Origin: Geodermatophilaceae bacterium NBWT11
GTDB taxonomy: Bacteria; Actinomycetota; Actinomycetes; Mycobacteriales; Geodermatophilaceae
Direction: 5' to 3'
NCBI GenBank assembly: GCA_014218215.1
Contig: CP043652.1
Location: 2,232,001-2,296,000 of the forward strand
Length of the DNA: 64,000 bases
In this document: positions 9,448-24,883 of the stretch, piece after piece
Numbering within the stretch: the stretch's first letter is position 1
How the letters are laid out: each line of letters begins with the position of its first letter
Made by a program: the position numbers and the translations under genes
Notes under the pieces: generated by a model
What the model was told of the DNA's origin: nothing
The model's database searches: none
What the model saw: the letters and a program-made list of their open reading frames with translations, nothing else

Positions 9448-10134
9448 TCAGGCCCGGCGGCCCAGCAGGTACCCCACGAGGACACCGAGCAGCGTGAGCA
9501 CCCCACCACCGGCGGCGGCCAGGGCCAGCTCGGCCGGGGCGGACCCGCCGGCGGCGGTGGCTGCGGGGGCGGCGAACCGGGTGGCCGGGGCAGGCGCAGC
9601 GGCAGGTGCGGCCGATCCGGTCTGTGCGGCGGTGTCGCTGACCGCGGCGGCGGAGGGCGTCACGTTCGCGTTCGCCGGGGCGGCCGGCGCCGGGGCGGTG
9701 CCGGTGAGCTCGGCGTCGATGGCGGAGAAGAACTGCCCGGCCAGCCGCTTGGCGACCCCGGTGATCATCCGCTGGCCCACCCCGGCCACGGCGCCACCGA
9801 CCACGGCGTCCGCGTCGTAGGTCAGCCTGGTGCCGCCCTCGACCTCCTCCAGGGTGATCGGCACGGTGGCCCGCACCGAGCCGGGCCCGCCGGAGCCCGA
9901 GGCGTGCATGACGTAGCGGGTGGGCTCGGTCTTGTCGGTCAGCTTGACCTCGCCGGCGTAGACGCCGCGGATCGCGCCGACGCCGACCGAGACGGTCATC
10001 GCGTACTCGTCCTCGCCGGTGCGCTCCAGGCCCTGGCAGCCGGGGATGGTGCGGGCCAACACCGCGGGGTCGGTGATCGCGGCCCACACGGCGGCGGGGG
10101 GAGCGGACAGGGTGGCGGTGCCGTCGAGCTTCAC
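9448..10134 (-). CDS. coxG: CoxG-like SRPBCC protein with C-terminal membrane anchor
   Basis: A 228-residue protein. The first about 150 residues are a START/SRPBCC domain of the carbon monoxide dehydrogenase subunit G type (LDGTATLSAPPAAVWAAITD, then IPGCQGLE, LTYDADAVVGGAVAGVGQRM). An Ala/Pro linker follows, then one membrane helix ending LLGRRA. CoxG proteins are known to help membrane attachment or assembly of molybdenum hydroxylases. The GTG start overlaps the large-subunit stop by 4 bp, so it belongs to the same operon and probably recruits the CoxLMS-type enzyme to the membrane. Confidence 0.85.
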   Translation of the reverse strand: MKLDGTATLSAPPAAVWAAITDPAVLARTIPGCQGLERTGEDEYAMTVSVGVGAIRGVYAGEVKLTDKTEPTRYVMHASGSGGPGSVRATVPITLEEVEGGTRLTYDADAVVGGAVAGVGQRMITGVAKRLAGQFFSAIDAELTGTAPAPAAPANANVTPSAAAVSDTAAQTGSAAPAAAPAPATRFAAPAATAAGGSAPAELALAAAGGGVLTLLGVLVGYLLGRRA

Positions 10135-12542
10135 GCGGGGACTCCAGGGATGGCGGCGGGGACGCGCTCGGCGTCGGGGGAGCGGACGAGGTCGTAGAGC
10201 TCGGTGGGGCTGATCGGCATCGCGGCGATCCGGAGACCGATCGCGTCCTCGATGGCCGAGGCGATGCAGGCGGTGCCCGGGATGACGCCGGCCTCACCGG
10301 CGCCCTTGAGGCCCAGCGGGTTCAGCGGGGACGGGGTCTCCTGGTGGTCGATGACCACGTCGGGGACCTCGCTGGCGTAGGGCATCAGGAAGTCCATGAA
10401 CGAGGCGTTCTGCAGCTGGCCGTCGCTGTCGTAGGCCATCCGCTCGTAGAGCGCCCCGCCCACGCCCTGGGCGACCCCGCCGTGCACCTGGCCCTCGACG
10501 ATCATCGGGTTCACGATGTTCCCGCAGTCGTGCACGACGGCGTAGTCGACGACGTCGATCTCCCAGGTGGTCGGGTCGATCTCCACCACCGCGGCGTGTG
10601 CGCCCGAGGCGAAGGTCGACCGGATCGGGGAGTAGTAGTCGACGTGCTCCAGGCCGGGGGCGTCGCCGACGGCGACCGGGGGCTTGCTGTCGTCGCCGGG
10701 GCCGGCGAACTGGGTGGCCTGCCGGGCGGCCTCGTCGAAGGCGTACCGCAGCGGGTTCGACAGCACGGCCACGGTGCGCAGCGGGATCGCCGTCCCGGGC
10801 GTGCCCTTGACCTGCACCACGCCCTCGTCGATCTCGAGGTCGTCGACGTCGGCCTCGAGGATCTCCGCGGCGATCCGCAGCGCCTTGGCGCGCACCCCGC
10901 GGGCGGCGAGGGCGATGGCGTTGCCGCTCATCACCGCCGCGCGGGAGGCGAAGGTGCCCACGGCGTAGCCGAAGCGCCGGGTGTCGCCGGTGGTGACCTC
11001 GACGTCCTCGATCGGGACGCCCAGCTCGTGCGCCACGATCTGCGCGAAGGCCGTCTCGTGACCCTGGCCCTGGCTGGTCAGCCCGGTGGAGACCAGCACC
11101 TTGCCCGAGCCCAGCACCTGCACGTGGCCGCCCTCGTAGGGGCCGGGGCCGGTGCCCTCGACGTACATGGCCATCCCGATGCCCAGCTGCTTGCCGCGGG
11201 AGGCGGCCTCGGCCCGGCGCTCCTCGGCGCGGTCCCAGCCGACCAGGGCGACCAGCTTGTCCAGCAGGCCCTCGTAGTCACCGGAGTCGTAGATGACCGG
11301 CCGGCCGTCCTGGAACGTCAGGTGGTGGTCGTAGGGGAACTGGTCCTTGCCGATCAGGTTGCGGCGGCGCACCTCGGCCCGGTCGAGCCCGAGGTGCTGG
11401 GCGATCCGGTCCATCGTGCGTTCCATCGCGTAGCAGCCCTGGGGGCGACCGGCGCCGCGGTAGGGCGTGACGATGACGGTGTTGGTGTAGACGCTGTCGA
11501 TCCGCACCCGGTAGACCGGGACGGCGTACGGGCCCACCAGCTGGGTGGCCGTCACGATCGGCACGATGATCCCGTAGGGCGTGTACGCGCCGTTGTCGTG
11601 CCAGGCGCGGACGTCCAGCGCGGTCACCCGGCCCTCGTCGTCGTAGCCGACGGTGATCTCCTGGCGCTGTTCGCGCTCGTGCGCGGAGGAGATGAAGTGC
11701 TCGCGACGGTCCTCGGCCCAGTGCACGGGCTGGCCGAGCGCGATGGCGGCCATCGGCACCAGCAGCTCCTCGGGCCACGGGTGCACGATCTTGACGCCGA
11801 ACCCGCCGCCGACGTCGGGCGCGACGACCTCGACCTTCTCCAGCGACAGCTGCAGCTTGGCGGCGATCGCGGCCCGCACCGAGGTGGAGGCCTGGGTGGA
11901 GGTGTGCACCCGCAGCGAGGAGTCGTCGTGGTTCCACACCGCGTGCACGCCCTTGCCCTCCATCGGCATGCAGGCGCTGCGCTCGATGTACTGGGTGAAG
12001 GACAGCGTGTGCGTCGAGGCGGCCAGCGCGGCCTCGACGTCGCCGGTCTCCTGGTGGTGCCGGGCGGCCACGTTGTCCGGGACGTCCTCGTGCACCGCGT
12101 GCACGGCGGCCCGGGAGGCGTCGACGCCCACGACGACCGGCAGCTCCTCGTAGGTGACGACGATCCGGTCGCAGACGTCCTCGGCGACGTAGCGGTCGGT
12201 GGCCACCACCATCACGACGGCCTCGCCCACGTGCTGGACGACATCGCGGGCCAGCGGGAAGCCGGTGCGCGGGGCGGTGAGCTGGGGGTGCGGGATGAGC
12301 ACGGGGAGCGGCTCGGCCATCGGGCCGAACAGGTCCTCGTAGGTGTAGACGGCGACGACGCCCTCGACGTCCAGCGCGCCGTCGACCTCGATGCCGGTGA
12401 TCCGGGCGTGCGCGTAGGGGCTGCGCACGAAGGCGGCGGCGAGCGCGCCGTGCCCGATGTCGTCGGTGTAGCGCCCGCGGCCAGTGATCAGCCGCAGGTC
12501 CTCTCGCCGGCGGACCGGCTCGCCCATCAGCTTCGTGGTCAC
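10131..12542 (-). CDS. Molybdenum hydroxylase large subunit (CoxL/XdhA family, form II)
   Basis: An 803-residue molybdopterin-binding catalytic subunit of the xanthine dehydrogenase/CO dehydrogenase family. It opens MGEPVRRREDLRLITGRGRYTDD. The active-site loop reads PYRGAGR (residues 360-366), the form II signature, not the AYXCSFR of true CO dehydrogenase. The C-terminal GLKGAGEAG carries the expected catalytic glutamate. It should hydroxylate an N-heterocycle or aldehyde. Start is GTG 12542, overlapping the small-subunit stop (GTGA); an upstream in-frame extension is the shadow of that gene. Linkage to a nucleobase permease and a barbiturase-family enzyme makes uracil/thymine a candidate substrate, as inference. 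Confidence 0.88.
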   Translation of the reverse strand: MTTKLMGEPVRRREDLRLITGRGRYTDDIGHGALAAAFVRSPYAHARITGIEVDGALDVEGVVAVYTYEDLFGPMAEPLPVLIPHPQLTAPRTGFPLARDVVQHVGEAVVMVVATDRYVAEDVCDRIVVTYEELPVVVGVDASRAAVHAVHEDVPDNVAARHHQETGDVEAALAASTHTLSFTQYIERSACMPMEGKGVHAVWNHDDSSLRVHTSTQASTSVRAAIAAKLQLSLEKVEVVAPDVGGGFGVKIVHPWPEELLVPMAAIALGQPVHWAEDRREHFISSAHEREQRQEITVGYDDEGRVTALDVRAWHDNGAYTPYGIIVPIVTATQLVGPYAVPVYRVRIDSVYTNTVIVTPYRGAGRPQGCYAMERTMDRIAQHLGLDRAEVRRRNLIGKDQFPYDHHLTFQDGRPVIYDSGDYEGLLDKLVALVGWDRAEERRAEAASRGKQLGIGMAMYVEGTGPGPYEGGHVQVLGSGKVLVSTGLTSQGQGHETAFAQIVAHELGVPIEDVEVTTGDTRRFGYAVGTFASRAAVMSGNAIALAARGVRAKALRIAAEILEADVDDLEIDEGVVQVKGTPGTAIPLRTVAVLSNPLRYAFDEAARQATQFAGPGDDSKPPVAVGDAPGLEHVDYYSPIRSTFASGAHAAVVEIDPTTWEIDVVDYAVVHDCGNIVNPMIVEGQVHGGVAQGVGGALYERMAYDSDGQLQNASFMDFLMPYASEVPDVVIDHQETPSPLNPLGLKGAGEAGVIPGTACIASAIEDAIGLRIAAMPISPTELYDLVRSPDAERVPAAIPGVPA

Positions 12543-13054
12543 TCCGCGGCCTCCTTCATGAGGCCCGCGGCGTGCCGGCAGGCCTTCTTGATGTTGGCGT
12601 AGCCGGTGCACCGGCAGAGGTTGCCGCCGACGATCTCGTCGACCTCGTCCTCGGTGATGTCGGTGCTCTGGTCGCGGGCCTCGAGCCCGGCGGCCATGGT
12701 CATCAGGAAGCCGGGGGTGCAGAACCCGCACTGCAGGGCGTGGCACTCGCGGAAGGCGGTCTGCACCGGGTGCAGCACCTCGCCGCCCCGGCCGTCGTCC
12801 CGGGCCAGGCCCTCGACGGTGGTGACGGCCTTGCCGTCCACCTGCACGGCGAGCACCAGGCAGGAGCGCATCGGCTGCCCGTCGACCAGCACCGTGCAGG
12901 CGCCGCAGACGCCGTGCTCGCAGCCCACGTGGGTACCGGTCAGCTCGAGGTCGTGGCGCAGCGCGTCGGACAGCAGCCGGCGGACCGGGACCGTCGTTTC
13001 ACGTGGCACACCGTTGACGGTGACGGAGATGGTGCGCTCGGTGGAGACGCTCAT
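12539..13054 (-). CDS. Molybdenum hydroxylase 2Fe-2S small subunit (CoxS family)
   Basis: A 171-residue iron-sulfur subunit. The plant-ferredoxin-type cluster has Cys45, Cys50, Cys53 and Cys65 (GCEHGVCGACTVLVDG...RSC). The second helical cluster domain has Cys109, Cys112, Cys147 and Cys149 (CGFC, CRC). It passes electrons from the molybdenum centre to FAD. It starts with ATG overlapping the medium-subunit stop by 4 bp, in the order M-S-L typical of CO dehydrogenase-like operons. All eight cluster ligands are present, so the enzyme is likely functional. Confidence 0.92.
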   Translation of the reverse strand: MSVSTERTISVTVNGVPRETTVPVRRLLSDALRHDLELTGTHVGCEHGVCGACTVLVDGQPMRSCLVLAVQVDGKAVTTVEGLARDDGRGGEVLHPVQTAFRECHALQCGFCTPGFLMTMAAGLEARDQSTDITEDEVDEIVGGNLCRCTGYANIKKACRHAAGLMKEAAE

Positions 13055-13920
13055 CGGTTCTGTGCCTCCTGGGCGGCGCGGGCGAGGGTGCGTTCGGTGA
13101 GGACGCCGACCAGCAGCCGGCGGTAGTCCGCGCTGGCGTGCAGGTCGCCGTCCGGGTCGACGAGGGTGCGGGCCAGGGCGCCGGCGGCGGCCCAGTCGGC
13201 GGTGTCGGCGGACTGGCCGGCGACGGCCTCGGTGAGGTCGTGCACCTCGGGCACCAGCCCGACGGAGATGTAGGACGCCCGGGCGGAGGTGACCCTCGAG
13301 TCGTGGTCGAGGGTGACCGTCACGCCGGCGCCGCAGACGGCGTAGTCGCCCTTGCGGCGGGAGATCTCCTCGAACGCGGTGCCGGTGCGGGCGGGCAGAG
13401 CGGGGAAGAAGGCGTCGGTGACGACGGCCGGGCCGTGCACCGAGGTCTCCAGCGGGCCGACGAAGAAGTCCGCCCAGTCCACGACGGAGGACCCGGCCGG
13501 CGTGGCGACGGTGACCGAGCCACCGGTCAGCGCCAGCACCGAGGTCATCTCCCCGGAGGGGTCGGCGTGCGCGATCGAGCCGACGGTGGTGCCGCGGTTG
13601 CGGATCGCCGGGTGGGCGACGTTCGCGGTGGCGCGGGCCAGCAGCGGCTGGACCGCGGCGGCACCGGCGTGGTGCAGCAGGTCCACGTGCCGCACCAGGG
13701 CCCCGACCCGGACACCGTCGTCGCTCACGACGACGGTGTCCAGGTCGGGCACCCGGTTGATGTCCACGAGCGTGGTCGGCGAGGCCAACCGCATGGACAA
13801 CAGGGGGAGCAGTGACTGCCCTCCGGCCATCACCTTGGCGCCCTCGCCCTCGCTCTGGAGGACGGACAGCGCCTCGCCGAGCGAGGTGGGGTCGGCGTAG
13901 CCGAAGGGTGCGGGCTTCAC
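13051..13920 (-). CDS. Molybdenum hydroxylase FAD-binding medium subunit (CoxM family)
   Basis: A 289-residue FAD subunit. It has the AGGQSLLPLLSMRL pyrophosphate-binding motif near residue 33 and a second motif, TTVGSIAHADPSGE, where many homologues have TxGGSxxxAxP. It accepts electrons from the 2Fe-2S subunit and reoxidises through NAD or another acceptor. GTG start at 13920 overlaps the permease stop (GTGA). It follows the permease and precedes CoxS in one leftward operon. Confidence 0.9.
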   Translation of the reverse strand: MKPAPFGYADPTSLGEALSVLQSEGEGAKVMAGGQSLLPLLSMRLASPTTLVDINRVPDLDTVVVSDDGVRVGALVRHVDLLHHAGAAAVQPLLARATANVAHPAIRNRGTTVGSIAHADPSGEMTSVLALTGGSVTVATPAGSSVVDWADFFVGPLETSVHGPAVVTDAFFPALPARTGTAFEEISRRKGDYAVCGAGVTVTLDHDSRVTSARASYISVGLVPEVHDLTEAVAGQSADTADWAAAGALARTLVDPDGDLHASADYRRLLVGVLTERTLARAAQEAQNR

Positions 13921-15377
13921 TGCGTGCGGGTCTCCTTCACGGTGCCTGTCTGTGCGTCCAGCGACGAGGGGTCGGCGGCGCCGTCGGTGGTGTGCGCACC
14001 GGTCGCGCCCAGGGCGGGGCCGGTGCCGTGCCGGAAGCCGTCCTCGGCGTCCAGCGAGTCCTTCATCTCCCGGGGCGCGAGGGCCCGGGCCAGGTGCCAG
14101 CCGCCGACGGCGACGATGGTGCCCAGCGAGATGCCCGACAGCGAGAAGTTGTCGGTGACCTGGAGGTTGACGTTGCCGATGCCGATGATGATCCCGGCCG
14201 CGAGCGGCACGAGGTTGATCGGGTTGGCGAAGTCGACCCGGTTCTCCTTCCAGATCTTGGCGCCCAGCAGACCGATCATCCCGTAGAGGACGACGGTGAT
14301 GCCGCCGAGGACGGCACCCGGGGTCGCGTTGACCACGGCGCCGAACTTGGGCACCAGGCCGAGCACGATGGCCACGATCGCGGCCACGTAGTAGGCGGCC
14401 GTGGAGTAGACCCGGGTGGCGGCCATGACGCCGATGTTCTCGGCGTAGGTGGTCGTGGGGGAGCCACCGACGGAGCTGGCGAGCACGGTGCCGACGCCGT
14501 CGGCGAAGACCGCGCGGCCCATGACCGGGTCGAGGTTGCGCTTGGTCATCTCACCGACGGCCTTGACGTGCCCGGCGTTCTCGGCGACGAGCGCGATGAC
14601 CGCGGGCAGCACCAGCAGGGAGAAGTTCACCGAGAAGCTGGGGGCGGTGAAGGTGGGCAGCCCGAACCAGTCGGCCTGGCCGATCCCGTCGAGGTTGACC
14701 CGGTCGTGCGCGCTGACCACGCCGGCGCCGTCGGGGGCGGTGATCTGGCCGATGCTCGCGTCGAGCACCAGGGAGAGCACGTAGCCGAAGACCAGGCCGA
14801 GCAGGATGGAGATGCGCGACCAGAAGCCGCGCAGCGCCAGGGACACCACGACGACGAAGGCCATGGTGGCGAAGGCGACCCACTGGTCCTGGGGCCAGTA
14901 CGTCTGGGCCGCGACCGGGGCCAGGTTGAAGCCGATCAGGAGCACCACGGCGCCGGTGACGGCGGGGGGGAGCACCTTGTTGACCACGACCGGACCGGCC
15001 TGCTGGATCACCAGGCCGACGATCATCAGGACGACGCCGGAGACCAGGATCGCGCCGACCACGTCGCCGCTGTCACCGCCGCCGGCCCGTACCGCGGCCA
15101 CGCCGCCGACGAACGCCGCCGAGGTGCCCAGGTACGAGGGCACCTTCCCCTGCACGATCAGCAGGAAGACGATCGTCGCGATCCCGCTCATCATGATCGC
15201 GAGGTTGGCGTCCAGGCCCATGATCAGCGGGAAGACGAAGGTCGCACCGAACATGGCGACGACGTGCTGCGCGCCGATCCCGACCGTCAGCGGCCACGAC
15301 AGCCGCTCGTCGGGGGCCACGGCCTGACCGGGCGGCGGGGTCTTCCCGTCGCCGTACAGCTTCCACCCGAACGCCAT
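13917..15377 (-). CDS. Uracil/xanthine permease, NCS2 family
   Basis: A 486-residue integral membrane protein with about 12-14 hydrophobic helices. The N-terminal region reads LSWPLTVGIGAQHVVAMFGATFVFPLI, the NCS2 signature with the QH pair, and NAGHVKAVGEMT and GGSPTTTYAENIGV correspond to the substrate-site helices. It should import uracil, xanthine or a related base by proton symport. ATG 15377 is preceded by AGGAGG (complement of 15382-15387), which rules out an upstream in-frame alternative. It is the first gene of the operon permease-coxM-coxS-coxL-coxG, so the transported base is probably the hydroxylase substrate. Confidence 0.9.
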   Translation of the reverse strand: MAFGWKLYGDGKTPPPGQAVAPDERLSWPLTVGIGAQHVVAMFGATFVFPLIMGLDANLAIMMSGIATIVFLLIVQGKVPSYLGTSAAFVGGVAAVRAGGGDSGDVVGAILVSGVVLMIVGLVIQQAGPVVVNKVLPPAVTGAVVLLIGFNLAPVAAQTYWPQDQWVAFATMAFVVVVSLALRGFWSRISILLGLVFGYVLSLVLDASIGQITAPDGAGVVSAHDRVNLDGIGQADWFGLPTFTAPSFSVNFSLLVLPAVIALVAENAGHVKAVGEMTKRNLDPVMGRAVFADGVGTVLASSVGGSPTTTYAENIGVMAATRVYSTAAYYVAAIVAIVLGLVPKFGAVVNATPGAVLGGITVVLYGMIGLLGAKIWKENRVDFANPINLVPLAAGIIIGIGNVNLQVTDNFSLSGISLGTIVAVGGWHLARALAPREMKDSLDAEDGFRHGTGPALGATGAHTTDGAADPSSLDAQTGTVKETRTQ

Positions 15378-15558: not shown

Positions 15559-17052
15559 GTGAGTGCCCCCACAGCAGCGGCCGGCGACCTCCAGCAGGTG
15601 CCCCGGCACGTCTCCCTGCGCAGCGGCGTCTACGCCGACTCGGTCAAGTTGATGCAGGTCAGCAAGGCGATCGGCGCCCGCGAGGGCGTCACCGCCGTGC
15701 TGGTCGCGATGGCCACGCCGCTCAACCTCGAGCTGGCCGCCGGGATGGGCCTCTCGCCCGACCCCGGGGCCAAGCCCGACCAGCTCCTCATCGCGTTGAC
15801 CGCGACCGACGACGCCGAGCTCACCTCCGCGGTCGCCGCGGTCGAGGCCGCGCTGACCGCCCGCGAGGACCGCGGCTCGGCGCAGGCGATCCCCTCCCGC
15901 ACGGTCGGCGCGGCCCTGGACGAGGAGCCCGAGACCCCGCTGGCGATCGTCAGCGTGCCCGGTCCGTACGCCGTCGCCGAGGCGATGGACGCGATCGCCG
16001 CCGGCCGCAGCGTGCTGGTGTTCAGCGACGGCGTCCCGGTGGAGCACGAGATCGCCCTCAAGCAGGCCGCACACGACGCCGGCGTGCTGGTGATGGGCCC
16101 CGACTGCGGGACCGCGATCGTCGCCGGGGTCTTCCTGGGCTTCGCCAACGTCGTCCGGCCCGGGCCCGTCGGCCTGGTCGCCGCCTCCGGCACCGGCGCC
16201 CAGCAGGTCAGCTGCCTGCTCGACACCGCCGGCGTCGGCGTCAGCCACGTCCTGGGTGTCGGCGGCCGCGACCTCTCCGCCGCCGTCGGCGGCCTGGCCA
16301 CCCTCGACGCGCTCCGGATGCTCGAGGAGGACACCGCCACCGAGCGGGTGCTGCTGGTCTCCAAGCCCCCGGCCCCCCAGGTCGCCGAGCGCGTCGCCGC
16401 CGCGTCGGCGGAGCTGTCCACCCCGGTGTCCAGCGCCGCGCTCTCGGCCGACAGCCCCGACCTGACCGCCGCGGTCGAGGCGCTGCTGCGCGACATGGGC
16501 GTCGCCGTCCCCACCTGGCCGACCCGGCCCGGGGCCGACCGGGCCGTGCCCGCCGGTGCCGTGCTCAAGGGCTTCTACTCCGGCGGCACGCTCGCCGACG
16601 AGGCGATGCTGGTGGCCGCCCCGGCCCTCGGCGACGTCCGCTCGAACACCCCGCTGCGCCCCGAGCTCGACCTGGGCGCTGACTTCGCCGCCCGCGGGCA
16701 CGTGGTCGTCGACTTCGGGGACGACGCGCTCACGGTCGGCCGAGCGCACCCGATGATCGACCCCACGCTGCGGCTGGAGGCGATCGCGACGCTGGCCGCC
16801 AGCGGTGAGCCCGCCGTCCTGCTGCTGGACGTCGTCCTCGGCCACGGCGCCGACCCCGACCCGGCGGGTGCGCTCGCCCCGGCCCTGCGCGACCTGCAGG
16901 TCCCGGTCGTCGTCGCACTCGTCGGCACCGAGGGCGACCCGCAGGGCTGGTCGGCCCAGGCCGACGCCCTCGCCGCTGCCGGCGCCGCCGTCTTCGCCTC
17001 CAACTCCGCGGCCACCCGGCACGCACTCGACCTGATCGGGGCATCGAAGTGA
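15559..17052 (+). CDS. fdrA: FdrA family protein (acyl-CoA synthetase-like carbamoyltransferase subunit)
   Basis: A 497-residue FdrA (AllF) homologue. The N-terminal part is succinyl-CoA-synthetase-like with MGPDCGTAIV; a CoA-ligase-like domain follows (GLVAASGTGAQQVSCLLDTAGVG). The C-terminal domain resumes at ADRAVPAGAVLKGFYSGGTLADEAMLVA. In E. coli, FdrA with YlbE and YlbF has been reported to form oxamate carbamoyltransferase, which splits oxalurate with phosphate to carbamoyl phosphate. Here the next gene (4-bp overlap) is the YlbE-like DUF1116 partner, but no YlbF (DUF2877) gene is seen in the window. The acceptor or substrate here may therefore differ; ureidomalonate is a structural analogue of oxalurate (inference). 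Confidence 0.85.
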   Translation: MSAPTAAAGDLQQVPRHVSLRSGVYADSVKLMQVSKAIGAREGVTAVLVAMATPLNLELAAGMGLSPDPGAKPDQLLIALTATDDAELTSAVAAVEAALTAREDRGSAQAIPSRTVGAALDEEPETPLAIVSVPGPYAVAEAMDAIAAGRSVLVFSDGVPVEHEIALKQAAHDAGVLVMGPDCGTAIVAGVFLGFANVVRPGPVGLVAASGTGAQQVSCLLDTAGVGVSHVLGVGGRDLSAAVGGLATLDALRMLEEDTATERVLLVSKPPAPQVAERVAAASAELSTPVSSAALSADSPDLTAAVEALLRDMGVAVPTWPTRPGADRAVPAGAVLKGFYSGGTLADEAMLVAAPALGDVRSNTPLRPELDLGADFAARGHVVVDFGDDALTVGRAHPMIDPTLRLEAIATLAASGEPAVLLLDVVLGHGADPDPAGALAPALRDLQVPVVVALVGTEGDPQGWSAQADALAAAGAAVFASNSAATRHALDLIGASK

Positions 17053-18458
17053 CCAGCCTGCTCAGCGGCCCGCCCGCCGTCGTCGCCGCCGGGGTCGACG
17101 TCTTCTCCGACGCGCTGCGCGCCCAGGGCGCCGCGGTGACCGACGTCGAGTGGCGTCCGCCGACGATCGGCTCGGCCGAGGACCTCACCCAGCTCGCGCT
17201 GGACCCGCGCCGGGCCGCCGCCAACCGGGCCGCCGTCGAGCGTGTGCTGGCCGCGGGCTCGGTGCTCACCGACGTCCTGCCCGCCCGCGACGTGCTGGGT
17301 CTGCCCGACCGCACCCTCCTGCACAGCGGACCGCCGCTGACCTGGGAGACGGCGTCGGGCCCGATGCGCGGCGCGCTCATGGGCGCCTGCCTCTACGAGG
17401 GCTGGGCCGAGACCCCCGAGGACGCCGAGGCGCTGCTGGCCTCGGGCGGCATCGCGCTGGACCCCTGCCACCACCACCGCGCCGTCGGCCCGATGGCCGG
17501 GGTGACCAGCCCGTCGATGTGGATGTGGTGCCTCACCGACCCCACCGACGGGCGACAGGCGTTCTCCAACCTCAACGAGGGCCTGGGCAAGGTGCTCCGG
17601 ATGGGCGCCTACGGCCCCGAGGTCGTCGAGCGGCTGCACTGGATGACCCGCACGCTGGGCCCGGTGCTCCAGGCCGCCGTCCGCAGCCGGTCCGCGGACC
17701 CGCTGGACGTCAAGGCCGTGCTCGCCCAGATGCTGCAGATGGGCGACGAGGGGCACAACCGCAACCGGGCCGGCTCCCTGATGACCCTGCGCGACCTGTC
17801 CCCGGCGATCGTCGAGGTGGACGCCCCGTCCTCCGACATCGCCGCGGTCCTGACGTTCATCGGCGGCAACGAGCACTTCTTCCTCAACCTCGGCATGCCG
17901 ACGGCCAAGCTCGCGATGGACGCCGCCCGCGACGTCCCCGGCTCCACGCTGGTGACCGTGCTCGCCCGCAACGGCACCGAGTTCGGCGTCCAGACCGCCG
18001 GCACCGGCGACCGCTGGTTCACCGCGCCGGCCAACACCCCTGTCGGGCTGTTCCTCGGCGACTACGGCCCGGACGACGCCAACCCCGACATCGGCGACTC
18101 CGCGATCATGGAGACCTACGGCGTCGGCGGCTTCTGCATGGCCGCGGCCCCGGCGATCGTCCGTTTCGTCGGTGGCACGGTGCCCGACGCGTTGGCCACC
18201 ACCGAGCGGATGTACCAGATCACGATGACCGAGAACCCGGCGATGCAGGTGCCGGTGCTCGGCTTCCGCGGCGCCCCGACCGGCATCGACGTCGTCTCGG
18301 TCGCCCGCACGGGCTGGCTGCCGCAGATCAACACCGGGATGGCGGGCCGGGTCGCCGGCACCGGGCAGGTCGGCGCCGGCCTGGTCCAGCCCCCCGCCGC
18401 CTGCTTCGAGCAGGCCGTGGTGGCGCTGGCCGAGGAGTCCCGCACCGCCCTCGCCTGA
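17049..18458 (+). CDS. DUF1116 (YlbE/AllG-like) protein
   Basis: A 469-residue protein matching the DUF1116 family: an N-terminal FSDALRAQGAAVTDVEWRPP, then MRGALMGACLYEGWA, a LAQMLQMGDEGHNRNRAGS segment, and a conserved C-terminal VFRGAPTGIDV-like stretch (GFRGAPTGIDV). In E. coli its homologue is a subunit of oxamate carbamoyltransferase together with FdrA. GTG start overlaps the fdrA stop (GTGA), so the two are coupled. A 24-bp hairpin follows immediately, ending a two-gene operon. Together with the carbamate kinase at 23918 it suggests energy-conserving release of a carbamoyl group. Confidence 0.85.
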   Translation: MTSLLSGPPAVVAAGVDVFSDALRAQGAAVTDVEWRPPTIGSAEDLTQLALDPRRAAANRAAVERVLAAGSVLTDVLPARDVLGLPDRTLLHSGPPLTWETASGPMRGALMGACLYEGWAETPEDAEALLASGGIALDPCHHHRAVGPMAGVTSPSMWMWCLTDPTDGRQAFSNLNEGLGKVLRMGAYGPEVVERLHWMTRTLGPVLQAAVRSRSADPLDVKAVLAQMLQMGDEGHNRNRAGSLMTLRDLSPAIVEVDAPSSDIAAVLTFIGGNEHFFLNLGMPTAKLAMDAARDVPGSTLVTVLARNGTEFGVQTAGTGDRWFTAPANTPVGLFLGDYGPDDANPDIGDSAIMETYGVGGFCMAAAPAIVRFVGGTVPDALATTERMYQITMTENPAMQVPVLGFRGAPTGIDVVSVARTGWLPQINTGMAGRVAGTGQVGAGLVQPPAACFEQAVVALAEESRTALA

Positions 18459-18548: not shown

Positions 18549-19367
18549 TCAGCGGATCAGCGTCCCCAGGTCCACCGGCAGCTGGATCCCGGTGACGTGT
18601 CGGGCCTCGTCGCTGGCCAGGAAGGCGACGGCGTTCGCGATGTCCTCGGGCTGGGAGAACTGGTCGGGCAGCGCCTGCATGAAGATCGGCGCCAGGGTCT
18701 GCGCGTTGGCGGCGATCAGCGGGCCCAGGTCGTCCACGGTCATCCCGGTCGCCACGCCGTGCGGGTGCACGGTGTTGACCCGGATCGAGTGCTGGGCCAG
18801 CTCGTTGGCCAGCGACTTCGCGTAGCCCACGACCCCGTGCTTGGTCGCCGCGTAGGCCGACAGGAACGGCAGCCCGCGCAGCCCGGCCACCGAGCTGGTG
18901 ATGACGATCGAGCCGCCGGTGCCCTGCTCGAGCAGCGTCGGGATGGTCGCCTTGGCGGTGTGGAAGACCCCGGTGAGGTTGACCGCCACGGTCTCGTCCC
19001 ACTGCTCGAGGGTGATCTCCCAGCTGTTGCCCGCCGAGCAGATCCCGGCGTTGGCGACGACGACGTCCAGGCGCCCGAGCTCGGCGACGCCCTCGGTCAC
19101 CGCGGCCTGCACGGCGGCAAAGTCCCGGACGTCGGCCTGCCGGGCCACGATGCGGCGGTCCAGCGCCTCGACCTGGCGGACGGTCTCGGCGAGGTCCTCC
19201 GGGGTGGCGCCGGCGTAGTGCGTGGTGGCGGGTTGGGTGCAGACGTCGATGGCGATGACGTCGGCGCCCTCGCTGGCCAGCCGGACGGCGTGCGCCCGGC
19301 CCTGGCCGCGGGCGGCACCGGTGACGAAGGCGACCTTGCCCTCGAAGCGGCGGGGGTTGGTGGACAT
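18549..19367 (-). CDS. Mycofactocin-coupled type SDR oxidoreductase
   Basis: A 272-residue SDR with TGAARGQGRAHAVRLASEGADVIAIDVC, ADVRD, ANAGIC and a YAATK catalytic pair (Tyr172, Lys176). The GQGR...AIDVC pattern and the insertion around residues 43-75 are typical of the mycofactocin-associated (carveol dehydrogenase-like) subfamily, which holds NAD tightly and needs mycofactocin for re-oxidation. CGAGGAGATC before ATG 19367 is a good ribosome-binding site. It lies 15 bp after a paralogous SDR gene. The alcohol substrate is unknown; no mycofactocin biosynthesis genes are in the window. Confidence 0.83.
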   Translation of the reverse strand: MSTNPRRFEGKVAFVTGAARGQGRAHAVRLASEGADVIAIDVCTQPATTHYAGATPEDLAETVRQVEALDRRIVARQADVRDFAAVQAAVTEGVAELGRLDVVVANAGICSAGNSWEITLEQWDETVAVNLTGVFHTAKATIPTLLEQGTGGSIVITSSVAGLRGLPFLSAYAATKHGVVGYAKSLANELAQHSIRVNTVHPHGVATGMTVDDLGPLIAANAQTLAPIFMQALPDQFSQPEDIANAVAFLASDEARHVTGIQLPVDLGTLIR

Positions 19368-19382
19368 GGGGATCTCCTCGGG

Positions 19383-20249
19383 TCAGGCGGGGGCGCCGGA
19401 GGTCGTGGTCGCCAGCAGGGCGCCGGCGTCCACCTTGAGCTGCAGGCCGGTGACGTACCGGGCCTCGTCGGAGGCCAGGAACAGCACGGCGTTGCTGATG
19501 TCGACGGGGTCGACGAAGGGGATGGGCATCGGCTGCATGGCCGGGAAGGCGAGCATGGCGTCCTCCCGGGTCGGGTTCTCCAGGTCGGGCCGGAAGACCT
19601 TGTACATGGGCTCGCTCTGCAACATCGGGGTGTCGACGTTGGTCGGGTGCACCGCGTTGACCCGGATCGACTGCGGGGCGAGCTGCTTGGCCAGCTCGTG
19701 CACGAAGCGGGCGACGTTCTGCTTGGCGAAGCTGTAACCGGATCCGCCGGGGCCGTTCTGCGGGTTGTCCGTGCCGCCGGACAGCAGCCCGGCGACCGAG
19801 CCGGTGCAGACGATCGAGGCACCGGCGCCCAGGTGCGGCAGGGCGACCTCGACGGCGTTCAGCACGCCGGTCAGGTTCACCGCGACGACGTCGAACCAGC
19901 CCTGGACCGGGACGTCGGCGCCCAGCGGGCAGATGCCGGCGTTGGCCACGACGACGTCCAGGCGCCCGAGCTCGGCGATGCCGGCCTCGACGGCCGCGGC
20001 CAGCTGGGCGCGGTCGCGCACGTCGGCGACCCTCGTGACCACCCGGCGGTCCAGCGCCTCGATCTGCCGGGCGGTCTCGGCCAGGTCGGCCTCGGTCGCC
20101 AGCGGGTAGTGGTTGGTCGCGATGTCCGCGCAGACGTCGACGGCGATCACGTCGGCGCCCTCCTGGGCCAGCCGCAGGGCGTGGCTGCGGCCCTGACCGC
20201 GGGCGGCCCCCGTCACGAACGCGACCTTGCCCGTCATCCGACCTGCCAC
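19383..20249 (-). CDS. Mycofactocin-coupled type SDR oxidoreductase
   Basis: A 288-residue paralogue of the neighbouring SDR: TGAARGQGRSHALRLAQEGADVIAVDVC, ADVRD, ANAGIC and YSFAK as the catalytic Tyr-Lys pair. An extra loop (residues about 165-180, rich in Gly/Asn) precedes the active site. GTG 20249 is preceded by GGAGGT at 5-nt spacing; ATG 20237 is an alternative start. First gene of a two-SDR leftward operon, divergent from a TetR gene across two palindromes. Presumed alcohol dehydrogenase; substrate unknown. Confidence 0.82.
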   Translation of the reverse strand: MAGRMTGKVAFVTGAARGQGRSHALRLAQEGADVIAVDVCADIATNHYPLATEADLAETARQIEALDRRVVTRVADVRDRAQLAAAVEAGIAELGRLDVVVANAGICPLGADVPVQGWFDVVAVNLTGVLNAVEVALPHLGAGASIVCTGSVAGLLSGGTDNPQNGPGGSGYSFAKQNVARFVHELAKQLAPQSIRVNAVHPTNVDTPMLQSEPMYKVFRPDLENPTREDAMLAFPAMQPMPIPFVDPVDISNAVLFLASDEARYVTGLQLKVDAGALLATTTSGAPA

Positions 20250-20317: not shown

Positions 20318-20323
20318 TAGCGT
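20318..20323 (+). promoter_or_regulatory. TetR gene -10 element (leaderless)
   Basis: TAGCGT ends 7 nt before GTG 20331, favouring that codon over the in-frame GTG at 20322, which would lie inside the promoter. Confidence 0.5.
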
Positions 20324-20330
20324 GGGAACC

Positions 20331-20900
20331 GTGTCCCTCCCGGTGCGCGAGCAGCAGCGGCGGGACAGCTGGTCGGCCCTGCAGGCCGCGGCCCTGGACC
20401 TGGTGGCCCGGCAGGGTTTCACCGCCGTCACGGTGGACGACGTCGCCACGGCCGCCGGGGTCTCCCGCCGGACCTTCTTCAACCACTTCCCGACCAAGGC
20501 CGCCGCGCTCTTCGACCCGCACCCCGACGACGCCGACCGTCTGGCCCGCCTCCTCGCCGACGTCGACACCACCGGAGGGCTGTGGGCCGCGCTGCGTTCG
20601 GTCCTCGTGGAGTTCGTCGGTGGCTTCGCGGCCGTGCTGCCGGTCCGCCGCCGGTTGGTGGCCGAGGACGCCGAGCTGGACGTCTACCACCGCACCGCCC
20701 ACCGGCACGTCGGTCACGCCGTCGAGACGTGGACGCGGGACCGGCTGCCCGACGACCCGCACCGGGCCGCCCTGGTCGCCGAGGCCGTCGCCGCCGTGCT
20801 CATCACCGCGTTCACCACCTGGGACCCCGACGACGACCCGGCCGTCTTCGTCGAGCTGGTCGCCCGCGGCTTCGACGTCCTCGGCGCCGGCCTGTCCTGA
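20331..20900 (+). CDS. TetR family regulator
   Basis: A 189-residue regulator. The helix-turn-helix spans about residues 12-58 (SWSALQAAALDLVARQGFTA, DVATAAGVSRRTFFNHFPTK). The C-terminal acyl-CoA/ligand-binding-like domain resembles regulators found with mycofactocin genes, but I cannot assign it to MftR with confidence. It diverges from two mycofactocin-type SDR genes and probably represses them and itself through the palindromes at 20259-20287. Confidence 0.83.
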   Translation: MSLPVREQQRRDSWSALQAAALDLVARQGFTAVTVDDVATAAGVSRRTFFNHFPTKAAALFDPHPDDADRLARLLADVDTTGGLWAALRSVLVEFVGGFAAVLPVRRRLVAEDAELDVYHRTAHRHVGHAVETWTRDRLPDDPHRAALVAEAVAAVLITAFTTWDPDDDPAVFVELVARGFDVLGAGLS

Positions 20901-20956
20901 CCCGCAGGCGACACCGCCGTGACACCGGCGCAACAAGGCTGAGCCAGCCTGGGCCG

Positions 20957-21991
20957 GTGAGCTTCGAGGTCCCCGTCGTCGACATCTCCCCCTACGTCAC
21001 CGGGGTCGGTGACCGGGCTGCGACCGCTGCGGCCATGGACGCCGCCTGCCGTGCCGTCGGGTTCGTCCAGGTGGTCGGGCACGGTGTCCCGTCGGCCGCG
21101 GCCGACGGGCTCGCCGCCGCGATGGACGCCTTCTTCGGGCAGCCGGCCGAGGCGAAGCTCGCCGTCAGGACCCCACCGGAGGTCAACCGCGGCTACAGCC
21201 CGCCGAGGAGCGAGTCGCTGTCGCTGTCGCTGGGCGTGGAGTCCGCGGCCCGGATGAACGACTTCTTCGAGGCCTTCAACGTCGGCGCCTCCCAGGACAC
21301 CTACCCGGCGGTGCCCGACCTGCCGGTGCCGGACTACGCGCCCAACACCTGGCCGGACGTCGCGGGCTTCCAGGCCGCGGTGGACGTCTGGTTCCCCGAG
21401 GCGGCCCGGGTCGCCCGCACCCTCACCCGGGTCTTCGCCGACGCCCTCGACCTGCCCGCGGACTTCTTCGACGGCATCACCGGGCACTCCCTGGACGTGC
21501 TGCGGATGAACAACTACGCGCTGCCCCCGGGCACCGTGGACCTCGACGGCGAGCTGACCGGCATGGGCGAGCACACCGACTACGGGATCGTCACCGTGCT
21601 GTGGGCCGACCAGGTGCCGGGCCTGCAGGTGCTCGCCGCCGACGGCAGCTGGCACGACGTCTCCCCGGTCGACGGCGCGCTGCTGGTCAACCTGGGGGAC
21701 GTGACCGCGCGGCTGACCAACGAGCGCTGGTCCTCGACCCTGCACCGGGTCAAGCCGCCGATCGTGGACGGCGCCATCCGCCGGCGCCGGTCGGCCGCGT
21801 TCTTCCACGACGGGGACGTCGACGCCGTCATCGCCACCCTGCCCAGCTGCCTGGACCCGGGGGAGGTGCCGCGCTACCTGCCGGTGACGGTCGGGGAGCA
21901 CGTCGCGGCCAAGCTCCGCGGCTCGCGGGCGGGCGTGGTCAACACCGCCGCCGAGCGGGAGGCCGCCCGGGTGCTCGCCGCCCGCAGCTGA
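20957..21991 (+). CDS. Isopenicillin N synthase-like 2-oxoglutarate/Fe(II) oxygenase
   Basis: A 344-residue double-stranded beta-helix dioxygenase. The iron triad is His206, Asp208 (GEHTDYG) and His263 (STLHRVKPP), and Arg278-Ser279 (RRRSAAFF) is the 2-oxoglutarate clamp. An N-terminal DIOX_N-type region (VPVVDISPYV...GFVQVVGHGVP) places it with the IPNS/plant-type family, which also contains thymine 7-hydroxylase. GTG 20957 is the best start; the open frame upstream overlaps the TetR gene. Substrate unknown. Its position inside a putative pyrimidine-catabolic region makes a modified nucleobase a candidate (speculative). Confidence 0.85.
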   Translation: MSFEVPVVDISPYVTGVGDRAATAAAMDAACRAVGFVQVVGHGVPSAAADGLAAAMDAFFGQPAEAKLAVRTPPEVNRGYSPPRSESLSLSLGVESAARMNDFFEAFNVGASQDTYPAVPDLPVPDYAPNTWPDVAGFQAAVDVWFPEAARVARTLTRVFADALDLPADFFDGITGHSLDVLRMNNYALPPGTVDLDGELTGMGEHTDYGIVTVLWADQVPGLQVLAADGSWHDVSPVDGALLVNLGDVTARLTNERWSSTLHRVKPPIVDGAIRRRRSAAFFHDGDVDAVIATLPSCLDPGEVPRYLPVTVGEHVAAKLRGSRAGVVNTAAEREAARVLAARS

Positions 21992-22055
21992 GGGAATCCC
22001 CGGGCGGCACCGTGTCTTGGCCCAGGTGACCACCCCGACCACCTGGAGGACCACC

Positions 22056-22481
22056 GTGCCCGTCGTCTACACCGCCATCGCCACCGCGACCGGGGAGGGT
22101 CGCAACGGCCACGCCCGGTCCTCCGACGGCCTCATCGACGTCGACCTCGCGACGCCGGCCGAGATGGGCGGCGCCGGCGGGGCGACCAACCCCGAGCAGC
22201 TGTTCGCCGCCGGCTACGCGGCCTGCTTCCACTCCGCGCTCAAGGTCGTCGCCAAGCGCGAGGGCACCACGCTGGCCGACTCCGCGGTCACCGCCGAGGT
22301 CGGCATCGGCCCGAACGACGCCGGCGGCTTCGGCCTGGAGGTCGTGTTGCACGTGGAACTGGGCGGCGGGCTGGACCAGGCCGCCGCCGAGGCGCTCGTC
22401 GAGGCCGCGCACCAGGTGTGCCCGTACTCCAACGCGACCCGCGGCAACGTCCCGGTCACCCTCGAGACCACGGTCGCGTGA
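22056..22481 (+). CDS. ohr: Organic hydroperoxide resistance protein (Ohr/OsmC family)
   Basis: A 141-residue thiol peroxidase. The peroxidatic and resolving cysteines lie in AAGYAACFHSAL (Cys near residue 60) and HQVCPYSNATRGN (Cys near 125). NPEQLFAAGYAACFHSAL is the Ohr hallmark. It reduces organic peroxides in the cytoplasm. GTG 22056 is preceded by GGAGGA at 5-nt spacing; a longer frame upstream lacks support. The next gene overlaps by 4 bp. Confidence 0.92.
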   Translation: MPVVYTAIATATGEGRNGHARSSDGLIDVDLATPAEMGGAGGATNPEQLFAAGYAACFHSALKVVAKREGTTLADSAVTAEVGIGPNDAGGFGLEVVLHVELGGGLDQAAAEALVEAAHQVCPYSNATRGNVPVTLETTVA

Positions 22482-22765
22482 TCCGCAACGTCGTCGTCGG
22501 ACGGCTGCTGCCCGGCGCCGACCCGGCCGCCGTCCAGACCGCGCTCGACGCGATCGTCGCGTTGCCCGTGCAGGGCTGTCTGGACGTCCGGGTGGGGCGC
22601 GACGCCGGGCTCCGGGACGGCGCCTGGGGCTTCGCGATCACCAGCGACTGGGTGGACGCCGAGGCCTACCGGGTCTACGACCTGGACGCCGAGCACAACC
22701 GGATCCGGGCGGAGCTGTTCGGGCCGTTGTGCGCCGAGATCGCCCGCGTCCAGTTCGAGGCCTGA
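22478..22765 (+). CDS. Dabb family (stress-responsive A/B barrel) protein
   Basis: A 95-residue protein that appears to be a dimeric alpha-beta barrel: IRNVVVGRLLPGADPAAVQTALDAIVALP, then WGFAITSDWVDAEAYRVYDLDAEHNRI, with the conserved pattern of an early beta strand and a DxxAYxxYxxxxxH-like helix. Family members are stress proteins or small enzymes; the role here is unknown. GTG start overlaps the ohr stop (GTGA). Confidence 0.7.
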   Translation: MIRNVVVGRLLPGADPAAVQTALDAIVALPVQGCLDVRVGRDAGLRDGAWGFAITSDWVDAEAYRVYDLDAEHNRIRAELFGPLCAEIARVQFEA

Positions 22766-22806: not shown

Positions 22807-22814
22807 CGTCGTCG

Positions 22815-23918
22815 TCAGGCCTTGACGATGGCGGCGACGGGGCCGCCGCCCGAGGGGCCCTGGTGCACGGCGGCGACGGAGACGAAGACCGCCGGGTCGC
22901 CGGTCACCGAGGCGGCGACGCCGCCCACGGTGGCCTTGATCTGGCGGTGCCAGAACACGTCGGAGTCGTCGAGCATCGCGTTGCGACGGCCACGGACGTA
23001 GCCGGTCGGGTCGGCCTCGCACTTGAGGAAGACGTTGACCAGGTCGTCGCCCAGGTCGGAGGTGCGGGGGCGCTCGGGCAGCTCGAGACCGGCCTCGCGG
23101 ATGGCGTCCCAGATGCCGTCGGTGTCCAGGGCGTCCTTCATGACCGAGTGGCCGATGCGGTAGGCCCCGCCGTGCCCGCGGGCGTTGCCGACGACGACGA
23201 TCTGCGCCTGGTCGAGCTCCACGCCCGAGGAGCAGGACGCGACGGCCGAGAACAGCGAGAAGTCCCGCATGACCTGCTTCTGCTCGGGCAGCTCGATCTC
23301 GCCGAGGGCCAGCGCGATGCCCAGCGCCGTGGTGCCGTTGGAGAGGTCCATCGAGCCGTGCGGCTCGTCGTAGTAGGTCTCCTGGCCGCGCGACTTGGCC
23401 TCGCGGATCGTCTCGATCGTCAGCAGCGGGGTCTTGGTCTGCACGTAGTGCACGTCGGCGGGGTCGGTGATCCCGGCCTCGGCCATCGCCCGGCGGACGC
23501 CCTCGGCGACCTTCTCGACCATGGTGATCCGGCCGATGTCCTCGGGCAGCAGCACCTCGCTCATCGCGAAGCCGACGGTCAGCCGGGGCTCGTCGGTCTT
23601 CTCGACCGAGTCCTCGGGCAGCGTGGCGAAGATCGTGGCGTGCGGGCTGATGACGCCGTCGGTGCCACCGGACCACACGATCGGGATCTGCTTGACCTCG
23701 GCCTCGCTGCGGGTGCCCTTGGCCATCAGCACCTCGCGGAAGGCCCGGTCGGCGATGATCCGGGTGTAGTCGTTGACCCCGCCGTTGCCCTCGGTCTTGC
23801 CGATGACGGCGACGACGCGGTCGGCGTCCATGACGCCCTCGTCGATGAGCTTGGCGAGCTCCGAGGCGTCACTCACGTTGTGCAGCGGGACCTTGCGGAC
23901 CTCGATCGGTGCGGGCAT
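22815..23918 (-). CDS. Ring-opening amidohydrolase, barbiturase/cyanuric acid hydrolase family
   Basis: A 367-residue member of the AtzD/barbiturase family, which has a three-repeat fold with Ser-Lys dyads. Recognisable are [67 protein letters not shown] and [21 protein letters not shown]. The family opens barbiturate (to ureidomalonate) or cyanuric acid. The N-terminal [18 protein letters not shown] and the association with a uracil-type permease and Mo hydroxylase favour barbiturase, but I cannot separate the two by sequence alone. The start ATG shares one base with the carbamate kinase stop (TGATG), so translation is coupled. Confidence 0.85.
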
Positions 23919-24883
23919 CAGGACTCCTCCTGGTTGATGACGGTGCCGACGGCGTCGTCGGCGACGGCTTCTGCGATGTGTTCGAGAGAGGTGATGACGG
24001 CGCGACGGCCGGTCCCGCCGGCGACGAACCGCAGCGCGGCGTCGACCTTCGGGCCCATGCTGCCGCGCGCGAACTGGCCGGCCGCGGCGTGCTCGCGCAG
24101 CTCGGCGACGGTGACCCGACCCAGCGGCCGGGCGTCCGGGGTGCCGAAGTCGACCATGACGTTGTCGACGTCGGTGGCGATGACCAGGGTGTCGGCGCCG
24201 AGCTCGGCGGCCATCAACGCCGCGGTCAGGTCCTTGTCGATGACGGCCTCGACCCCGCGCAGCGCGGCGCCGTCCCGGCCGTCGTCGACGACCGGGATCC
24301 CGCCGCCGCCGGCGCAGACGACGACGTACCCGGCACCGGCCAGGGTGCGGACGGCGGGGGAGTCGAGCACCGACAGCGGAGCCGGCGAGGCGACGACGCG
24401 GCGCCAGCCCTTGGCCCCGCGGTCCTCCCAGGTCTGGCCCAGGTCGATGAACCGCTGCGCCTGGTCGCGGGGCAGGAAGCGGCCGACGGGCTTGGTGGGC
24501 TCGGTGAACCCGGGGTCCCCGGCGTCCACGAGCGTGCGGGTGACCAGGGCGGCGGTGCGCTGGGTCAGTCCCCGGGCGGCGAGGGCGGCGTCCAGCTCGT
24601 CGACGACGGTGAAGCCGATCGTGGCCTGGGTCTGGGCGACGTTCCAGTCCAGCGGGACCGGGGGGACCTCGTGCGCGGCCAACTCGTTCTTGACCAGCAA
24701 GTTCCCCACCTGGGGGCCGTTGCCGTGGGTCAGCACGACCTGGACCCCGGTGGCGACGACGTCGGCCACGTGTCCGGAGGCGACGGCGATGGCCGCGCGC
24801 TGGGCGCCGGGTGTCGCCGACCCGTCCGCCCCGGTCATCGCGTTGCCGCCCAGGGCGATCACGACGGTGCGGGGTGAGGTCAT
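23918..24883 (-). CDS. arcC: Carbamate kinase
   Basis: A 321-residue amino-acid-kinase fold protein: IALGGNAM at the N-terminus, [63 protein letters not shown] and [17 protein letters not shown]. It makes ATP from carbamoyl phosphate and ADP, releasing carbamate. No arginine deiminase or ornithine carbamoyltransferase is adjacent. It is the first gene of a two-gene operon with the barbiturase-type hydrolase, so its carbamoyl phosphate probably comes from a ureido compound, perhaps through FdrA/DUF1116 (inference). A leaderless promoter lies directly upstream. Confidence 0.93.

Follow-up and report, generated by a model that had tools for sequence, protein, structure and literature searches.

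A putative phosphorolytic branch of oxidative pyrimidine catabolism linking barbiturase to AllF-AllG-AllH and carbamate kinase in actinobacteria

The stretch of DNA analysed here, called the window throughout, comprises 64,000 nucleotides of Geodermatophilaceae bacterium NBWT11 (C1:2232001-2296000 of a 4.59 Mb single-contig genome; GC content 73%). Within 15.5 kb it carries a Mo-hydroxylase operon that includes an NCS2 permease, a divergent AllF-AllG gene pair, and a carbamate kinase (CK)-barbiturase (BAR) operon (Table 1). Gene identities come from gene calls and Pfam/NCBIfam profile scans; L-numbers below denote loci or stretches fetched, and G-numbers genomes. The same genes and their grouping had been named in a first-pass annotation of the bare sequence, and all of them were found in place. 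From gene identity, co-occurrence, shared clusters, the split of AllG into subfamilies, and a replacement pattern in genomes that lack AllG, we consider it likely that these genes serve an oxidative breakdown of pyrimidines that salvages the carbamoyl group as carbamoyl phosphate.

Table 1. Genes of the proposed pathway, with positions numbered from the first letter of the window.
Feature	Position	Strand	Evidence
CoxG-like protein, last gene of the Mo-hydroxylase operon	9448..10134	-	PF06240, 94.7 bits; 4-bp overlap with L gene
Mo-hydroxylase L subunit, proposed uracil/thymine hydroxylase	10131..12542 (longest ORF to 12746)	-	NF040766 'CODH_aero_grp5', 1438 bits, cut-off 950; motif PYRGAGR
Mo-hydroxylase S (small 2Fe-2S) subunit	12539..13054	-	PF01799, PF00111
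Mo-hydroxylase M (FAD) subunit	13051..13920	-	PF00941, PF03450
NCS2 permease	13917..15377 (longest ORF to 15458)	-	PF00860; TIGR03616 RutG, 379 bits
AllF (FdrA)	15559..17052 (start possibly 15598)	+	NF004760, 389 bits, below cut-off 433; solved relative 3dmy FdrA
AllG (DUF1116), barbiturase-associated subfamily	17049..18458	+	PF06545, 311 bits; solved relative 3clq; tree
Barbiturase, Group VI by signature	22815..23918	-	5hwe, 621 bits; N194/H324/K328/V348/A349
Carbamate kinase, upstream of and overlapping barbiturase	23918..24883	-	PF00696; PRK12352, 289 bits, cut-off 266

Adjacent genes overlap by 4 bp at every joint of CoxG-L-S-M-NCS2 and of AllF-AllG, and the carbamate kinase stop and barbiturase start have TGATG in common. 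The best equivalog model for the permease is RutG, though under its cut-off of 759, and the kinase, over the PRK12352 cut-off, scores just below that of TIGR00746 (336.6 bits, cut-off 358.25). In the proposed pathway, the NCS2 permease would import uracil or thymine, with cytosine entering via a deaminase, and the CoxMSL-like Mo-hydroxylase would hydroxylate C6 to give barbiturate, whose ring barbiturase would open to ureidomalonate (3-oxo-3-ureidopropanoate). AllF, AllG, and AllH (together AllFGH) would then use phosphate to split ureidomalonate into malonamate and carbamoyl phosphate, carbamate kinase would turn the latter into ATP, CO2, and ammonia, and an amidase or the HyuAB protein pair would convert malonamate to malonate. 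In Escherichia coli, AllFGH interconverts oxalurate plus phosphate and oxamate plus carbamoyl phosphate (PMC11326118, available part). Since ureidomalonate is the one-carbon-longer homologue of oxalurate, we infer that it may be the substrate here and that the same chemistry would give malonamate and carbamoyl phosphate.

The proposed branch predicts that barbiturase, AllFGH, and carbamate kinase travel together, and the genome survey that the first-pass annotation had called for found just such co-occurrence. The same 394 genomes of the host's class were searched for the barbiturase family PF09663 (82 genomes), AllG (88), and AllH (80); PF09663 coincided with AllG in 75 genomes and with AllH in 73, and all three were present in 73. 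The association of PF09663 with AllG is far beyond chance by a Fisher test that ignores shared ancestry (p = 3e-58). When family members were assigned as barbiturase-type by identity where the sequence had been fetched, and otherwise by a model score of at least 459 bits (G209, with its gene in two parts, and G023, with a 25-residue fragment, being counted), AllG was found in 75/77 barbiturase-type genomes versus 13/317 others, and AllG and AllH together in 73/77. By genus, AllG occurred in 35/37 with barbiturase and in 8/101 without. Seven class genomes had a PF09663 match and lacked AllG, and five of these (G031, G093, G100, G122, and G347) carry only distant AtzD-family members that are 35-40% identical and have other signatures. 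A phylum sample of 296 genomes contained 18 with PF09663, 14 of them outside the host's class. Among these 14, AllG was present in 11, compared with 6/66 genomes drawn without a PF09663 match; at barbiturase-level scores only, the count becomes 11/12, and the three misses are G560 and G570 (373 and 309 bits, in the non-barbiturase range) and G569 (515 bits).

The genes also lie together. Barbiturase and AllG share a contig in 48 of the 75 genomes and stand within 50 kb of each other in 40 and within 150 kb in 47. Among barbiturase genomes, leaving out G051, whose sole AllG is of the other type described below, an NF040766 L subunit lies within 15 kb of AllG in 48/59, and AllH lies within 5 kb of AllG in 67/72, the window genome being an exception. 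Of the 80 named loci, 77 have carbamate kinase within 2 kb of barbiturase. The class loci that we read often show, subject to gaps and rearrangements, the order AllG-AllF-(AllH) diverging from PucR-NCS2-M-S-L-CoxG-(amidase/nitrilase-type hydrolase)-HyuA-HyuB-(CaiB-carboxyltransferase)-CK-BAR, for example in Embleya sp. NBC_00888 (L232). Among the clusters of other classes, L258 (G415) reads BAR-NCS2-CK-AllH-AllF-AllG-NmrA-M-S-L-CoxG on one strand, with overlapping genes from CK through M; L257 resembles it and has two extra genes; and L266 (G472) holds CK-AllF-AllG-M-S-L with a 4-bp overlap of AllG and M, barbiturase being on another contig and no AllH being seen in the stretch. The NCS2 proteins of this set are just 28-31% identical to that of the window. 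In G221, AllF and AllG are fused into one protein of 994 residues. In the Modestobacter loci L042 and L052, barbiturase directly heads NCS2-M-S-L-CoxG-HyuA-HyuB. We also observed that ABC-transporter genes (NMT1/THI5-like by eye) adjoin barbiturase in L260 and L267, with no NCS2 seen in either stretch, and that L269, from a genome without a PF09663 match (G423), holds AllG-AllF-HyuB-HyuA-MoL together, so that another ring opener may exist.

Genomes that have barbiturase and lack AllG were also considered. The family of G031, in the same order as the host, provided 201 genomes, 18 of them with PF09663; ten of these score at barbiturase level (483-492 bits) and eight lower (370-403 bits). AllG was found in one of the ten, one of the eight, and one of 52 others examined, so barbiturase can work without AllG, and the idea that the two are always paired was rejected. 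Eleven barbiturase genomes without AllG (nine of this family, G206, and G014, the last represented by a 5.4-kb contig only) were compared with 28 short AllG-positive loci, which have 1.5-kb flanks, and 21 wider AllG-positive regions; G028, G030, G119, and G180 are in both sets, and the 21 exclude L233 (Nonomuraea), which shows neither AllG nor carbamate kinase. Carbamate kinase lies within 2 kb of barbiturase in 0/11 of the genomes without AllG versus 23/28 short loci and 14/21 wider regions. The misses among the 21 are L258, L259, L261, L262, and L267, with the kinase farther along, L198, with the kinase in the neighboring L197, and L260, with none. Conversely, a PF01425-like amidase lies within 2 kb of barbiturase in 8/11 of the genomes without AllG (8/9 of those from the G031 family) versus 0/28 and 0/21, and no amidase lies within that distance in the window. 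Amidases are present elsewhere in the AllG-positive clusters.

The Rhodococcus-like loci, read by tblastn and open reading frame listing, illustrate this second arrangement. The barbiturase of G734 is identical at 367/369 positions to the solved barbiturase 5hwe, which we take to be a Rhodococcus enzyme, and its locus reads L-S-M-NCS2-aminotransferase-amidase-BAR, followed by UPRT, PucR, CaiB, and a carboxyltransferase; carbamate kinase, AllFGH, and HyuAB had no match in the stretch. Around its barbiturase, G734 has Mo-hydroxylase, NCS2, PucR, CaiB, and carboxyltransferase genes of the kinds seen in the AllG-positive clusters, but it has an adjoining amidase and lacks AllG, with no carbamate kinase or HyuA near barbiturase, whereas the window has AllF, AllG, and carbamate kinase. 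The sole AllG-positive barbiturase genome of the family, G677, instead reads BAR-CK-carboxyltransferase-CaiB-HyuB-HyuA. Given the contrast in what stands beside barbiturase, the simplest reading is that AllFGH and carbamate kinase would replace ureidomalonase, and the loci look like two alternative versions of one pathway: a hydrolytic one giving urea and a phosphorolytic one giving carbamoyl phosphate and ATP.

All three subunits of the transcarbamylase are encoded in the window genome. AllH is located at C1:3997046-3997357, where it adjoins an MFS gene and faces a PucR regulator and a cytosine-deaminase-like amidohydrolase. The idea that AllF and AllG work without AllH lost ground once this gene was found, and by analogy with E. 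coli, where AllH is required, the window enzyme should need it as its third subunit. The single E. coli-style operon of three all genes and carbamate kinase, which some relatives of other classes have (e.g., L257 and L258), does not occur in the window, where AllF-AllG stands alone and the kinase is about 5.5 kb away. An AllG tree of 61 rows, in which the E. coli row is the annotated gene, separated 45 barbiturase-type rows from 16 others with support of 100/98, albeit with long branches in several of the 16. The tree left out all but six AllG copies of loci L034-L090, eight second copies from genomes already included, and L001, L201, L206, L211, and G020. The larger side holds 44 rows from barbiturase genomes plus G108 (80% complete, with near kin that have barbiturase), and the smaller side holds 13 rows from genomes without barbiturase, the G051 AllG, the second AllG copy of G068, and E. 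coli. Nine alignment columns separate the two sides (e.g., Trp163 versus Pro, and Pro453 versus Ala). On this tree the barbiturase-linked AllG is a separate subfamily, which we file as related to, but not as, oxamic transcarbamylase.

A different account would keep the classical route: a still unrecognised ureidomalonase would yield malonate and urea, urease would finish the breakdown, and AllFGH and carbamate kinase would act on a different ureide, for instance oxalurate arising from co-regulated breakdown of purines. The window does contain urease genes, at about 34.8 kb (UreC identified by Pfam, its neighbors by eye), oxalurate is the substrate of the E. coli enzyme (PMC11326118, available part), PucR regulators, named for purine catabolism, occur in the clusters, and the Rhodococcus-like genomes have barbiturase without AllG. 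Nevertheless, we regard this account as unlikely, because several genomes of other classes have AllFGH and carbamate kinase within the barbiturase/Mo-hydroxylase cluster, because the barbiturase-type AllG forms its own subfamily, and because, where AllG is absent, no carbamate kinase stands beside barbiturase and an amidase usually does. Moreover, E. coli-type AllD scored over its cut-off in 0/80 genomes (69 with barbiturase and AllG and 11 with AllG only; weaker matches in 19), so an E. coli-type supply of oxalurate was not seen in these genomes.

The enzyme that would produce barbiturate was likewise tied to this gene set. NF040766, the 'aerobic CO dehydrogenase group 5' model, was over its cut-off in all 60 barbiturase genomes examined (59 with AllG, plus G206) versus 0/20 others (12 with AllG only, five with other AtzD members only, and three with neither). 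The same motif as in the window L subunit was present in 34/35 hits examined, the odd one (L217) being 28% identical and without a readable motif. That the Mo-hydroxylase is instead a real CO dehydrogenase, unrelated to pyrimidines, is suggested by the NCBIfam name, by CoxG in the window, and by CoxD-, CoxE-, and XdhC-like genes near the cluster in relatives. We think this quite improbable, since the model was over cut-off only in barbiturase genomes among the 80 examined, and since the hits bear PYRGAGR rather than the active-site motif of form I aerobic CO dehydrogenase, AYXCSFR, which does not occur in the window L subunit. As far as the accessible text of PMC4053681 goes, that motif defines form I, the cysteine that binds copper is missing from type II enzymes, and a functional enzyme of that type had yet to be demonstrated as of 2014. 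A soil survey in the same text found atypical coxL sequences with PYRGAGR, as in the window, and grouped them as hypothetical type II CO dehydrogenase, whereas here they are tied to barbiturase. The group 5 L subunit is thus probably a uracil/thymine hydroxylase, judging by its motif and distribution. To our knowledge, no sequence has been assigned to the uracil/thymine-oxidising Mo-enzyme.

The best solved match of the window's ring-opening enzyme is 5hwe, 'Barbiturase', compared with 323 bits for the best cyanuric acid hydrolase, and its closest named relatives are the barbiturases of Modestobacter sp. Leaf380 and Klenkia, at 98-99% identity. The five signature residues in Table 1 correspond to the Group VI barbiturase signature, which the available part of PMC3758960 gives as Asn195, His321, Lys325, Val345, and Ser/Ala346 in AtzD numbering. 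In an alignment of 133 family rows of at least 300 residues from the loci fetched by then, some genomes appearing twice, the signature was present in 124; the nine others are two single-residue variants, one truncated row, and six rows with 35-40% identity to the window enzyme, which have the cyanurate signature RTRGG (two) or NHKGG or NPKGG (four). Another observation from the loci is a Modestobacter barbiturase (L053:5278-6375) in which the signature Asn is replaced by Ile. The conserved Ser-Lys dyads and Glu230 equivalent (PMC4051656, available part) are all in the window protein, and the nucleophile Ser, its Lys, and the Glu are kept in 132/133 rows, the exception being the truncated one. 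The available text of PMC4051656 describes a barbiturase subgroup with Gln at the Arg188 position; both the solved barbiturase and the window enzyme have Asn there, in agreement with PMC3758960, so we preferred the latter signature. The window enzyme appears to be a barbiturase and not a cyanurate hydrolase, and of the two names joined by the first-pass annotation only the former was retained. The reading in which a cyanuric acid hydrolase opens the ring and AllFGH and carbamate kinase act on biuret, giving urea for urease, would accord with the NCBIfam name cyanuric acid amidohydrolase (NF052395, 474 bits, cut-off 360) and with allFGHK adjoining biuret hydrolase genes in nitrifiers (PMC12625717, available part), but it was rejected as extremely improbable on the active-site signature, together with the match to the solved barbiturase, the lack of AllG in the five class genomes that have only cyanurate-type or other signatures, and the NCS2, UPRT, and cytosine-deaminase-like neighbors (in relatives or elsewhere in the genome), which point to pyrimidines.

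Many of the clusters include HyuAB and amidases. In the window genome, HyuA (L210:7606-9669) and HyuB (L210:5759-7606) lie to the left of the window on the same strand as CoxG; HyuA is the only Hydant_A_N match in the genome. Their nearest models are those of caprolactamase, at 492 and 199 bits, both far under cut-offs of 1000. HyuA was found within 12 kb of barbiturase in 0/11 of the genomes without AllG, 8/21 wider AllG-positive regions, and 9/80 named loci, several stretches ending before 12 kb, and the contrast between the genomes without AllG and the AllG-positive regions is only suggestive. HyuAB may turn over malonamate with ATP. Other candidates for a malonamate amidase in the clusters are AS-family amidases, a nitrilase-type hydrolase, and an asparaginase-like protein, the last recognised by eye. 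CaiB and the carboxyltransferase would fit malonate activation and decarboxylation. We know of no ureidomalonase sequence.

Several observations weigh against a pathway of this kind. Within the class, G206 and G014 (72% complete) have barbiturase and no AllG, as do G569 in another class and nine of the ten barbiturase-level genomes of the G031 family, and no AllF, AllG, or nearby carbamate kinase occurs in the Modestobacter stretches L042 and L052. AllG is in turn present without barbiturase in 13 class genomes, in the six phylum-sample genomes, and in G682 and G717 of the G031 family (G717 also carrying an AtzD relative of low score), so AllFGH serves other purposes as well. The window genome has AllH 1.75 Mb from the AllF-AllG pair, and an unrelated insert lies between HyuAB and CoxG, which are about 11 kb apart. 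The Fisher tests are not corrected for shared ancestry, the AllD cut-off is strict, and another source of oxalurate is possible. Finally, HyuAB resembles ATP-dependent lactamases and could cancel the ATP gained.

Weighed together, the AllF/AllG-carbamate kinase branch after barbiturase that the first-pass annotation had put forward gains support from the co-occurrence counts, the joint clusters of other classes, the AllG subfamily, and the kinase/amidase contrast. Its FdrA/DUF1116 pair would follow barbiturase, but AllH should be added as a third subunit; its phosphorolytic branch would apply to most barbiturase genomes of the class sample but is not universal; and its energy-conserving character fits the linkage of carbamate kinase to barbiturase and AllFGH, although a net gain of ATP is not established if HyuAB spends ATP. 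With rather less assurance, though on balance favorably, we propose a wider view: AllFGH would be an N-acylurea phosphorylase module of general use, of which actinobacteria have recruited a form specific to ureidomalonate, and pyrimidine oxidation would therefore exist in a hydrolytic version, with an amidase as ureidomalonase and urea as product, and in a phosphorolytic version, with AllFGH and carbamate kinase yielding ATP and HyuAB or an amidase acting on malonamate; the group 5 'CO dehydrogenase' and the PYRGAGR coxL would be the missing uracil/thymine hydroxylase.

An oxidative pyrimidine pathway with barbiturase and ureidomalonase was reportedly described in Rhodococcus erythropolis by Soong in 2001/2002, and the pathway proposed here resembles it in the oxidation of uracil and thymine to barbiturate and in a Group VI barbiturase. 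In the available part of PMC3758960, R. erythropolis is placed in Group VI, and the described step after barbiturase is that of ureidomalonase. The E. coli AllFGH and AllK proteins belong to the same four families and likewise make carbamoyl phosphate from an N-acylurea and then ATP, but their oxalurate comes from allantoin, whereas the window has barbiturase neighbors and the other AllG subfamily. In nitrifiers, the same module is proposed for ureide use, but allFGHK there adjoins the biuret/triuret genes biuH and trtA, not barbiturase (the string 'barbitur' does not occur in the accessible text of PMC12625717). Three AllG loci from genomes without barbiturase (L202, L203, and L204) resemble that nitrifier arrangement, with AllF-AllG-CK near an isochorismatase-like gene by eye, and possibly represent a biuret-type use of the module. 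Among the matches listed in a literature search that covered few subscription papers, none linked AllFGH to barbiturase or coxL to uracil.

Other features of the window were also recorded. Between AllG and barbiturase, 18549-20249 (- strand) holds two adjacent mycofactocin-type SDR oxidoreductases, the first over the TIGR03971 cut-off and the second assigned by similar sequence; 20322-22765 (+ strand), ahead of barbiturase, holds inserted genes for a TetR regulator, an isopenicillin-N-synthase-like 2OG dioxygenase, an OsmC-like protein, and a small unassigned open reading frame. An apparent catabolic island, read mostly by eye, occupies 716-8083 between HyuAB and the Mo-hydroxylase operon and includes an SDR, two acyl-CoA ligases, a BVMO-like flavoprotein, an enoyl-CoA hydratase-like protein, and a TetR regulator. 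The 16S, 23S, and 5S rRNA genes lie at 29175-34538 (+ strand), with the barbiturase cluster on one side and the urease genes on the other. Many of the named barbiturase-locus stretches stop at a contig end some 5-7 kb from barbiturase, as would be expected if the assemblies broke at the rRNA operon.

The genomic lines thus support a known transcarbamylase family, in a distinct subfamily, acting in a variant of a known pyrimidine pathway. Many soil actinobacteria carry a conserved gene set that probably converts uracil to barbiturate, opens the ring, and transfers the carbamoyl group to phosphate and on to ATP, where the described route loses it as urea. If true, this would be an energy-conserving branch of pyrimidine catabolism and would give a second substrate to a transcarbamylase for which genes became known as late as 2024 (PMC11326118, available part). 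Candidate genes would also be at hand for ureidomalonase and for the Mo-enzyme that oxidises uracil and thymine, and two automatic names, cyanuric acid amidohydrolase and aerobic CO dehydrogenase, would be corrected. Surveys of CO oxidisers based on coxL could then be counting pyrimidine oxidisers in the PYRGAGR group, which made up 0.7% of clones in the part of PMC4053681 available.

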